From: Candidatus Pyrohabitans sp. JdFR-17
Lineage (GTDB): Archaea; Hydrothermarchaeota; Hydrothermarchaeia; Hydrothermarchaeales; BMS3B
DNA: 51,238 nt
Assembly (NCBI GenBank): GCA_002011115.2
Contig: MTME02000090.1
Location: 1-51,238, forward strand
Reading direction: 5' to 3'
Position numbers and translations under genes: made by a program. The notes beneath the pieces are model-generated. The model did not search any database, was not told the DNA's origin, and worked only from the letters and a program-made list of their open reading frames with translations. Of the stretch, positions 33,026-42,987 are shown one piece after another (position 1 is the stretch's first letter; each line of letters begins with the position of its first letter).

Positions 33026-33204
33026 ACGTATCGTGTGTTTTAAGGCGGAGGGGATAAATAAATATTTTGTCCAGTCTTGTGATAACTCTTTTCACGTTCT
33101 GACGCGTTATCTTGCATATTCGCGTGAGAATCAATACCAGAGTTGCGCTTTGCCCACATTTTCAGGGATTAAATTTTTATATGCACCTGAAATGAAATTA
33201 CTTT

Positions 33205-40397: not shown

Positions 40398-40472
40398 TAC
40401 ATTTTTTCATATCATAACATATCAGAGAATAAATCAGCAAAACAAAATTTCATAATTTTTCAGATTTCAGCG

Positions 40473-40486
40473 AAAAAATATAAATA
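40473..40486 (+). promoter_or_regulatory. Putative TATA-box of the multiheme cytochrome gene
   Basis: AAAAAATATAAATA, ~120 nt upstream of the start, implying a ~95-nt 5' UTR. Confidence 0.5.
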
Positions 40487-40523
40487 TGTCTTTTTTGTTA
40501 TTGAATATCGGCATTTTTCGCCA

Positions 40524-40570
40524 GAACGTGTGGCTTTTGCCACATGTTCACCTCCTTCTACGAAAGGAGG
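40524..40570 (+). promoter_or_regulatory. Structured 5' UTR: 11-bp stem-loop followed by anti-SD hairpin
   Basis: GAACGTGTGGC-TTTT-GCCACATGTTC (40524-40549) then CCTCCTT-CTACGA-AAGGAGG (40551-40570). TCACCTC (40548-40554) is complementary to the RBS GAGGTGA (40593-40599). Confidence 0.6.
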
Positions 40571-40606
40571 CTGTCTGTCTGAAGAGTTTTGAGAGGTGAT
40601 ATGAGA

Positions 40607-41965
40607 ATGAAAAAATGGGTGGGCATAGCCTTGGCTGTGCTGCTGGTGCTGAGCCTGTTCAGCGGATGCACAAAGAAGGAAGCCTCAGCACCTGCGGCGG
40701 CAACGGCTTCTAAGTCAGAGAAAAAAGAGACCCACGTGACCGTTGAGACAAAGGTGGTCTCAGCAGATATTTCAGACCTTATCAAGAAGTACAAAGAGGA
40801 GAACGAGGCTACAGCGAAGGTTCTAAAGAAGCTTGGTGCAACAGATGAGGAAATTAAGAAAATCCTGCCCGACGACTCAAAGTGCGCCACCTGCCATCCA
40901 CAACACTTCTATGAGTGGACAAAGTCGAAGCACTATAACCCAGTGGTTTTCAGCTACTTCGCCTTCCAGAGCTACGCCTCTGACTTCAAGAAAAATCTTG
41001 ACAGGTTCCCAAAAGCTAAAGAGTGGGACGCCTGCTTCAGAGGGTGTCACGGTCCGACGATGAAGTACGCCAGCGACAAGGTTAAAGACAGGCTGTACGA
41101 GGCATTCCTCAGCGATGACGTTGAAAACCTCCGCGGTATTCGCGTAGGGTGCATAACCTGTCACTCAATGATGGTGGATGGAGAGCTCGGGGAAACCTAC
41201 TACGGAACAATCGAGGACCCCGAAGCGCCGCACGGTGCAAAGTTCTCGCGAGAGATGTCCACAAGCGAGTTCTGCAAGCCGTGTCACAGCAAGCTGAAGA
41301 TAGACTTTGTTACACCAGAGGTGAAAGAGGCGCTCAAGATGGGTGACTATGTGCGCTGTGGCTTGAACTATGATGCCTGGGCTCAGAGCGATGTGAGGAG
41401 AGAGAAGGAGTGTCAGTACTGCCATATGCAGACCATTGATGAACCCGCTGCTGAAGGAGGCAAGATGCGTATAAGGCACAGGCACGACTTCCCTGGACCT
41501 AACTCGCCTGCGATGATGGTCCGTGCAGCGAGAGTGAACCTGGATGCTCACAAAATGGGCGATGTGGTGCACGTCAAGATTGAGGTCAAAAACTTAGCGG
41601 AGCACATTCTGCCGGACGGATGCATCCTCGCAGCGAAGCCGGTGCTGCACGTGTATGCATACGATGAGAAGGGCAACCAGATATTCTATACCAACGAGAC
41701 CTGGAAGGTTGGAAGCTATGACTACCAGGGCAAGTTCACAGGCAGCGTATGGAAAGTGTGGGAATACGACACCAGTGTGATGTTCAACCCCGGCAAATGG
41801 TACAACTTTGAGTACAAGATACCCTACGGCAACGCTAAGAAGGTGACAGTAAAGGCGGTGATGAAGTACCACGACAGCAAGAAGAAGGAGAAGAGACCCA
41901 TCGATCCAGTGCCCAGTGCGACCCTGAGAATGAGCAATGAGGCTGTTGCCGAAGTGGAGCTGTAG
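40607..41965 (+). CDS. Multiheme c-type cytochrome lipoprotein (cytochrome c554-like start)
   Basis: Lipobox LSLFSGC; heme motifs CATCH, CITCH, CKPCH, CQYCH plus CFRGCH (CX3CH); SKHYNPV region. Start at the ATG 7 nt after GAGGTGA. Confidence 0.88.
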   Translation: MKKWVGIALAVLLVLSLFSGCTKKEASAPAAATASKSEKKETHVTVETKVVSADISDLIKKYKEENEATAKVLKKLGATDEEIKKILPDDSKCATCHPQHFYEWTKSKHYNPVVFSYFAFQSYASDFKKNLDRFPKAKEWDACFRGCHGPTMKYASDKVKDRLYEAFLSDDVENLRGIRVGCITCHSMMVDGELGETYYGTIEDPEAPHGAKFSREMSTSEFCKPCHSKLKIDFVTPEVKEALKMGDYVRCGLNYDAWAQSDVRREKECQYCHMQTIDEPAAEGGKMRIRHRHDFPGPNSPAMMVRAARVNLDAHKMGDVVHVKIEVKNLAEHILPDGCILAAKPVLHVYAYDEKGNQIFYTNETWKVGSYDYQGKFTGSVWKVWEYDTSVMFNPGKWYNFEYKIPYGNAKKVTVKAVMKYHDSKKKEKRPIDPVPSATLRMSNEAVAEVEL

Positions 41966-41989
41966 GGGCTATTGCCCCTCAATTTTTTT
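41964..41989 (+). terminator. Intrinsic terminator-like hairpin plus T-run
   Basis: AGGGGC-TATT-GCCCCT followed by CAATTTTTTT. Confidence 0.6.
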
Positions 41990-42009
41990 ACATTTGAGGT
42001 GACGACGGT

Positions 42010-42168
42010 ATGGAGAGGAACACATTAATATACATTGGATTGGTCGTGGTGATTTTATTAGCGATTGTAGCCTGGCTGGTGCTTGGTGGTGGCTCTGCGC
42101 CTGATGCAGCAACAGCAGAAACCCCAGTAATAACTACCGTTCCACCACACAAGCTCGGATGTGGATGA
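42010..42168 (+). CDS. 52-aa single-pass membrane mini-protein
   Basis: SD TTGAGGTGACGACGGTATG; MERNTLIYIGLVVVILLAIVAWLVLGGGSAPDAATAETPVITTVPPHKLGCG. Absent from the supplied ORF track (too short). Confidence 0.7.
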   Translation: MERNTLIYIGLVVVILLAIVAWLVLGGGSAPDAATAETPVITTVPPHKLGCG

Positions 42169-42359
42169 TATACTTATAAATTTTTAATTTTTTTATTATT
42201 TACGCGTTTAAACGCGATATTACGCATATATGACAATACCGCATATGGGGGAATTGGACATTTTTCACCAAGGAACGTTTTCAATGATTAAGTATAAATA
42301 TAATAAATTTATAATAGAAAAATAATAGAAAAAAACAATAAGATAAGGAGGTGGACGAT

Positions 42360-42950
42360 TTGAAGTTGATGCGAACTGTAATCCTCATAAGCGCAATAGC
42401 AATGCTTTTATTTGCCGGATGCACCCAGACTCCTACGGAGAAGCCCGCTGCCGAGAAGCCAAAGGCTGCTATTACCCCTGCAGAGCCAACGATGGATGAC
42501 AAATGCCCAATTTGTGGTATGATGCCCGCGAAGTATCCTGAGTGGCGGGCGCAGGTGGTGCTTAAGAACGGAGAGCGCTATCACTTCGACTCACCAAAAG
42601 ACATGTTTAAGTTTGTGCTTGGCCTAACGAACAAGAATGAGCCCAAGCAGTGGGTTGATAAGAGCGAGATAGCCGCGCTGTTTGTAACCGACTACGCCAC
42701 CAAGCAGTACACCGACGCCACCAAAGCATACTATGTAAAGGGTAGCGATGTTCAGGGGCCGATGGGCGACGACGTGGTGCCCTTCGCCAAGAGCGAGGAT
42801 GCGCACGCCTTCGCCTCGCAGCACGGTGGCGAGGTAATAACCTACGAAGATATAACCCCAGAGCTTATAAAGAGCTTCGGTATGAAGATGGGCGGTATGG
42901 GTGGTATGGAAGGAATGGACATGGGTGGCGAAGGCGAGATGAAGATGTAA
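42360..42950 (+). CDS. nosL: NosL-family lipoprotein with Met-rich C-terminal tail
   Basis: AAGGAGGTG RBS then TTG start; lipobox MLLFAGC; CPICGMMPAKYPEWRAQVVLKNGERYHFDSPKDMFKFV; tail MKMGGMGGMEGMDMGGEGEMKM. Confidence 0.88.
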   Translation: MKLMRTVILISAIAMLLFAGCTQTPTEKPAAEKPKAAITPAEPTMDDKCPICGMMPAKYPEWRAQVVLKNGERYHFDSPKDMFKFVLGLTNKNEPKQWVDKSEIAALFVTDYATKQYTDATKAYYVKGSDVQGPMGDDVVPFAKSEDAHAFASQHGGEVITYEDITPELIKSFGMKMGGMGGMEGMDMGGEGEMKM

Positions 42951-42951
42951 A

Positions 42952-42987
42952 GAGCATGCGGCAAAGCCGCATGTTCACCTCCTTTTT
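42952..42987 (+). terminator. 11-bp stem-loop plus T-run after nosL; second copy of the 40524 stem-loop/anti-SD motif
   Basis: GAGCATGCGGC-AAA-GCCGCATGTTC followed by ACCTCCTTTTT. Confidence 0.6.

Follow-up and report, generated by a model that had tools for sequence, protein, structure and literature searches.

We found that two hairpins at the nosL locus of an archaeal genome, here called el1 and el2, hold in their right arms and tails a 17-22-nt antisense of the translation initiation region (AAGGAGGTGAACATGTGGCAAA) of a cytochrome-d1-like propeller lipoprotein gene. We consider it probable that el1 (in a 5' leader) and el2 (in a 3' UTR) are trans-acting antisense modules on nosL-operon transcripts, which would block translation initiation of their target mRNAs. 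Comparison among related genomes supports the structure of the elements, their conservation, the specific antisense match, and the co-variation of both the stem and the predicted intermolecular duplex.

The two hairpins and their surroundings

The window, that is, the whole stretch of DNA analysed, is contig C90 (51,238 nucleotides) of the source MAG (G000; an uncultured deep-sea archaeon, 1.62 Mb). Among named genomes, those nearest to it are MAGs of Ca. Hydrothermarchaeota, Ca. Pyrohabitans jungbluthii JdFR-16 included. Four further genomes belong to the same genus, namely JdFR-16 (G001), S141_78 (G002), M_MaxBin.100 (G003) and S141_67 (G004), and M_MaxBin.027 (G015) belongs to another family within the order. 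As the preliminary description had reported, the window contains two hairpins with 11-bp stems, loops of 3 and 4 nt and a common tail (Table 1), the tail of el2 extending to 42984. Their MFE is alike (-19.6 kcal/mol), and the z-scores of the folds are -7.6 for el1 and -6.0 for el2, with none of 200 shuffles equalling either. The changes between the two left arms keep the pairing, as had likewise been noticed: stem pair 8 is U-A in one element and C-G in the other, a compensatory change, and pairs 3 and 5 alternate between A-U and G.U (wobble changes).

Table 1. Positions of the hairpin elements and neighbouring features in the window
Feature	Position	Strand	Sequence	Remark
Putative promoter of the el1/cytochrome transcript	40465-40490	+	TTTCAGCGA, then AATATAAATATG	Motif, then TATA-like box
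el1 hairpin	40524-40549			With tail to 40557
el1 left arm	40524-40534	+	GAACGTGTGGC	Near-copy of the target start region, bearing a G.U weak point
el1 loop	Between arms at 40534 and 40539		TTTT	
el1 right arm	40539-40549	+	GCCACATGTTC	Antisense to the propeller mRNA (spacer, start, first codons)
el1 tail	40550-40557	+	ACCTCCTT	Antisense to SD; proposed toehold
AAGGAGG	40564-40570	+	AAGGAGG	In-cis pairing with the el1 tail possible; counterpart in G004 is the SD of the downstream gene
Multiheme c-type cytochrome lipoprotein	40601-41965	+		Cytochrome_C554-like; ExtKL match weak
NosL lipoprotein	42351-42950	+		PF05573, 118 bits
el2 hairpin	42952-42976			With tail to 42984
el2 left arm	42952-42962	+	GAGCATGCGGC	
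el2 loop	Between arms at 42962 and 42966		AAA	
el2 right arm	42966-42976	+	GCCGCATGTTC	Matches the propeller start region in antisense, with one G.U
el2 tail	42977-42984	+	ACCTCCTT	T-rich stretch next; likely near the transcript 3' end

A TATA-like box precedes the first hairpin, which lies in the 5' leader of the multiheme cytochrome gene. The second hairpin directly follows the nosL stop codon on its 3' side, on the same strand as nosL; by the transcript limits that we predict, both fall in UTRs, on the strand of the mRNA. The promoter motif and TATA-like box ahead of el1 are kept in G001 and G004, the motif recurs at 33160 and 42279, and typical archaeal TATA spacing would place the transcription start of the el1/cytochrome transcript at about 40508. 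Neither element has an Rfam match above the gathering score, the sole match in the window being a tRNA. An intrinsic-terminator pattern matches el2 at 42952-42976, yet the counts of this pattern equal those in shuffled sequences; the promoter and terminator scans as a whole likewise gave counts like those of shuffles, and a strong T run is absent after el1 and after the G015 copy. Two other identities were rejected, namely, a minus-strand gene starting in the element (species differ in the ORFs that follow the hairpin, and none of at least 60 aa begins there) and a mobile or repeat element (its strong copies number just seven, in four genomes, and each of them flanks nosL).

Antisense match to propeller and nosZ gene starts

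The sequence GCCRCATGTTCACCTCCTT occurs in three exact copies in the 1.62-Mb genome, compared with none for a reversed-pattern control. The third copy, on contig C95 in reverse orientation, reads AAGGAGGTGAACATGTGGCAAAG; it covers the start of a propeller lipoprotein gene (propeller 1), with its Shine-Dalgarno (SD) sequence, spacer, GTG and first codons. On contig C32 a one-mismatch copy, in which the mismatch pairs as G.U, forms the start of another propeller-like lipoprotein gene (propeller 2). Both hairpin elements are thus the antisense of specific gene starts. The match to the propeller 1 start is exact over at least 17 nt in G000, G001, G003 and G004. The best Pfam match of propeller 1 is Cytochrom_D1 (30.5 bits), and its sequence contains a CxxCH motif; it does not qualify as a clade III lactonase-type N2O reductase, scoring 43 bits with NF052460 against a curated cutoff of 700. 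Propeller 2 has no Pfam match and is 51% identical to propeller 1 over the N-terminal 77 residues. The leader of the propeller mRNA (L003, about 1430-1515, and orthologues) is strongly conserved in four genomes and has a small CCCGAGAGACTTCGGG hairpin inside.

Among 160 SD-bearing starts of G000 (about 239 kb; the sample is not blind, as contigs with pattern hits were included on purpose), the best three duplexes with either element are those with propeller 1, propeller 2 and nosZ (ranks 1-3). Such specific complementarity to the SD and start of an unlinked mRNA is what one would expect of a trans-acting, RBS-masking antisense RNA. The preliminary description had taken the tail for an anti-SD that acts through its match to the 16S rRNA 3' end. 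In sequence the tail is indeed an anti-SD, but a simple 16S-like action falls short, since in propeller 1, propeller 2 and nosZ the complementarity reaches past the SD, over the spacer and the start codon and into the first codons.

The nosZ gene (C7:5575 in G000) is identified by TIGR04244 (823 bits, cutoff 625), and the duplex of el1 with its start, AAGGAGGTGGACATGTTGGCAAAGCC, has one G.U and one bulge. Across 12 genomes, the motif GGAGGTGRNCATGN{0,2}GGCAAAG was found only at propeller 1 (four genomes), at two further gene starts of G000 (propeller 2 and nosZ), and within one copy of el2; the control gave none, and genomes without the element lack it. A nosZ gene was found in one element-bearing genome only, and the nosZ start of G016 lacks the motif and differs from that of G000. 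AKPK codons common to nosZ and the propeller could explain part of the likeness of their starts. Because NosL is the copper chaperone of NosZ, nosZ makes a coherent candidate target. The gene leads a cluster (L153, G000:C7, 5575-14057) with nosR-, apbE-, nosD-, nosF-, nosY- and nosL-like ORFs; the order nosZ-R-X-D-F-Y-L was read from the ORFs, the NCBIfam/Pfam scan having been run on nosZ alone. Nos genes of related MBGE-B MAGs have been set aside as possible contamination (PMC6759336). Two points speak for nosZ being native to G000: its start motif is shared, and G016 has a nosZ 74% identical to it.

Distribution of the hairpin

We built a covariance model from seven copies and searched 23 genomes of the class. 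The strong matches (E <= 2.2e-8) are seven, identical to the model's own seven sequences with no extra, and span four of the five genomes of the genus (Ca. Pyrohabitans/Hydrothermarchaeota): el1 is present in G000, G001 and G004, and el2 in G000, G001, G003 and G004, all at the nosL locus. The top match beyond the genus, on contig C151 of G015 (E = 0.015, weak alone), lies directly 3' of nosL, and this element (GGATATGTGGGAGGGGGACCCCTTCTCACATATTCACCTCC) is a 16-bp hairpin with the same tail. When G015 is included, 98.8% of the cells of the lower stem are paired and two pairs are changed on both sides, compared with 0 in slid controls. Homologues with stem covariation, for which a covariance-model search of relatives had been proposed, do exist among the 23 genomes (G015 included), so that the hypothesis of the preliminary description passed its own refutation test, and in the genomes searched the elements occur at nosL/cytochrome loci only. 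All eight are oriented like the nosL-side transcript, on its sense strand. The other weak matches, at E 0.02-1, were judged to be chance after a sample of them was read. On the G015 contig (L036/L086), nosL consists of two NosL domains fused in tandem within a single frame; the hairpin follows this fused gene and is itself followed by another NosL-like gene.

In G016, which has nosL and nosZ, an el-like hairpin was not seen on either of the two nosL contigs. In G002, nosL is present, a propeller orthologue was not found, and el2 has neither ACCTCC nor a significant fold; we count this in favour of trans action, as a single case in which absence from a MAG is no proof. Also counted in favour of trans action is the 31-nt el1 GAACGTGTGGCTTTTGCCACATGTTCACCTC, which is identical in G004 although the downstream cytochrome gene differs, el1 there standing before a split-Soret-like cytochrome c gene (NF047622, 149 bits, cutoff 400 not reached).

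Co-variation of hairpin and target in a second family

The propeller homologue of G015 begins with AAGGAGGTGAATGTGTGAGAAAAG, and this start pairs over 19 nt, with one G.U, with the arm and tail UUCUCACAUAUUCACCUCC of the G015 nosL hairpin; that hairpin and the propeller start are the only sites within two mismatches in G015, where the propeller gene is truncated at the end of its contig. From the genus to G015, three intermolecular pairs are changed on both sides (C-G to U-A, G-C to A-U, and C-G to G-C), a number reached by 2 of 500 shuffles and by 0 slid controls. Given the frequency of GGAGGTGA sites, chance alone should yield the full pairable extension about 0.002 times in each of the two genomes. 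The predicted intermolecular pairing has been kept by co-variation across species, as seen in one independent family/lineage only.

With the cost of opening hairpin and target deducted, the net gain at 37 C with the propeller starts of the genus is -21.2 to -31.0 kcal/mol for el1 and -12.8 to -25.7 kcal/mol for el2; for the genus elements with G015 or G012 starts it is -4.6 to -11.1. Without the opening cost, the cognate duplex of G015 reaches -34.3 and ranks first against 246 starts. When its 16-bp hairpin is opened, the net gain is -7.1 kcal/mol at 37 C, which is not the best among the targets tried, and -9.1 at 70 C, which is the best for that element. This small net gain in G015 is the chief quantitative weakness of the trans model.

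Proposed mechanism and alternative explanations

In the mechanism that we propose, the free ACCUCC tail would pair with the SD of the target as a toehold, and the target would then invade the hairpin and displace the left arm, giving a 17-22-bp duplex; the left arm of el1 has a G.U where the target would offer an A-U. The duplex would hide the SD and the start codon, so that ribosome binding would be stopped. The predicted targets are the mRNA of the c-heme beta-propeller lipoprotein and, in G000, also those of the second propeller and nosZ, and the output of the propeller/NosZ respiratory proteins would be tied to nosL-operon expression. We infer the expression of the RNA, its active strand, its binding in the cell and repression as the outcome. 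A wider reading, which we offer tentatively, is that an mRNA-borne module at both operon ends couples NosL expression to the translation of N2O reductase and the heme propeller via toehold hairpin invasion, and that it would form, in an archaeon, a regulon of N2O/cytochrome respiration based on UTR-derived RNA.

Alternatively, el1 may be a cis-acting leader, whose tail (UCACCUCC) would control its own mRNA by pairing with one of two SD sequences further down, either AAGGAGG (40564-40570) or GAGGTGA (40593-40599), el2 being only a hairpin for 3'-end stability or termination. The leader of G000 folds with a 7-bp tail/GGAGG hairpin, GGAGG is kept in G001 and G004 (in the latter as the gene's SD), the G015 element also has GGTGA after it, and the stretch after el2 is T-rich. 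We consider this explanation unlikely, however, as it accounts neither for the 17-22-nt match of the right arm to the propeller start nor for the co-variation in G015. Moreover, in the genus el2 keeps the same arm and tail without a downstream SD partner, so cis action alone cannot explain both el1 and el2, and el1 could possibly act in cis on the GGAGG that follows it, alongside the trans role.

Since base pairing is symmetrical, the direction might also be reversed, with the propeller and nosZ mRNAs, or a minus-strand decoy RNA of the same sequence, acting on the nosL transcripts: el1 would be opened, freeing the AAGGAGG ahead of the cytochrome gene, or the stability at el2 would be changed. 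The minus strand does read an SD and an ATG within the hairpin, but its frames are unconserved, the elements share the nosL-side sense strand without exception, and the pairing covers the target's own start site, so that an effect on the target is expected regardless; we find this reversal quite improbable. It is very improbable that one transcription factor binds both the inverted repeats and the gene starts as DNA operators. The inverted-repeat form would suit such a factor, and its site would likewise co-vary between loci, but the spacer varies (3 and 4 nt, with a 16-bp extended stem in G015), the targets hold just one half-site, located exactly at the SD and start codon, and promoters lie upstream of both elements. 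Finally, although the tail UUCACCUCC is similar to the generally known 3' end of archaeal 16S rRNA, and the elements have a stem-loop and ACCUCC layout, they can hardly be a general anti-SD decoy or 16S 3'-end mimic acting on all SD-led mRNAs, since their specificity extends beyond the SD and the non-SD part co-varies with one orthologous target between families, for which a generic anti-SD reading is too weak.

Relation to known RNAs and significance

To our knowledge, few archaeal trans-acting RNAs have known targets. RBS-masking sRNAs are already known, and the new part would be the UTR-borne form at both operon ends of an archaeon; we did not find a UTR-borne archaeal antisense module of such form in the literature searched, which covered few subscription papers, and a literature search for nosL small RNAs gave none that were relevant. 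In Methanosarcina mazei, sRNA162 and sRNA41 are separate intergenic sRNAs that pair in trans with mRNA and mask the RBS/start (PMC3510493, PMC5867862), an unstructured linker doing the pairing in the case of sRNA162 (PMC3510493). The likeness is that of an archaeal RNA pairing in trans and masking the RBS/start, as predicted here from sequence; the difference is that the antisense here is the 3' arm and tail of short UTR hairpins at both operon ends, with near-full complementarity, and we claim no relation in sequence. The alpha-r14 family sRNAs (NfeR1) of rhizobia are hairpins with an unpaired CCUCC anti-SD directed against mRNA start regions (PMC10746234); in these bacterial RNAs, encoded by an independent gene, the anti-SD is identical and the stems vary freely, whereas here the stem arm is itself antisense and tracks the target. 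Bacterial 3'UTR-derived sRNAs, such as that from the glutamine synthetase mRNA, are released by processing (PMC9731577). They resemble our proposal in that a regulatory RNA in the 3' UTR of a metabolic mRNA would control a related pathway, but here the host is an archaeon, a second copy lies in a 5' leader, and the system is known from sequence alone. DenR (sRNA-29) of Paracoccus denitrificans lowers denitrification genes including nosZ via a GntR regulator, with no nirS pairing (PMC6686037), in contrast to the direct pairing to start regions predicted here.

If the proposal is true, a mechanism readable in sequence would operate in thermophilic archaea of a lineage that is known through metagenomes only, and the transcript of a copper chaperone would be linked to the translation of nosZ and related redox proteins. 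Control of N2O reductase is of wider interest because this enzyme is the enzymatic sink of N2O. The prediction is sharp, with three named targets, defined base pairs, and swaps between two families.

Promoters and gene order at the nosL locus

An operator-like motif, TTTCAnyGAwwA, stands directly 5' of a TATA-like box at 33160, 40465 and 42279 (+ strand), in promoters that serve a second nosL gene (33205), the cytochrome/el1 transcript and nosL, respectively. The G000 contigs that were sampled have no further site of this motif beside a TATA-like box. A similar motif also precedes nosL in G001-G004 and G015; it is possibly a shared transcription-factor site. The gene behind el1 varies, being the multiheme cytochrome in G000 and G001 (40601-41965 in the window) and the split-Soret-like gene in G004 (L033, 1942-2748). 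The el1 leader and nosL stay, which makes this a gene swap or insertion between a constant leader and nosL among sister species.
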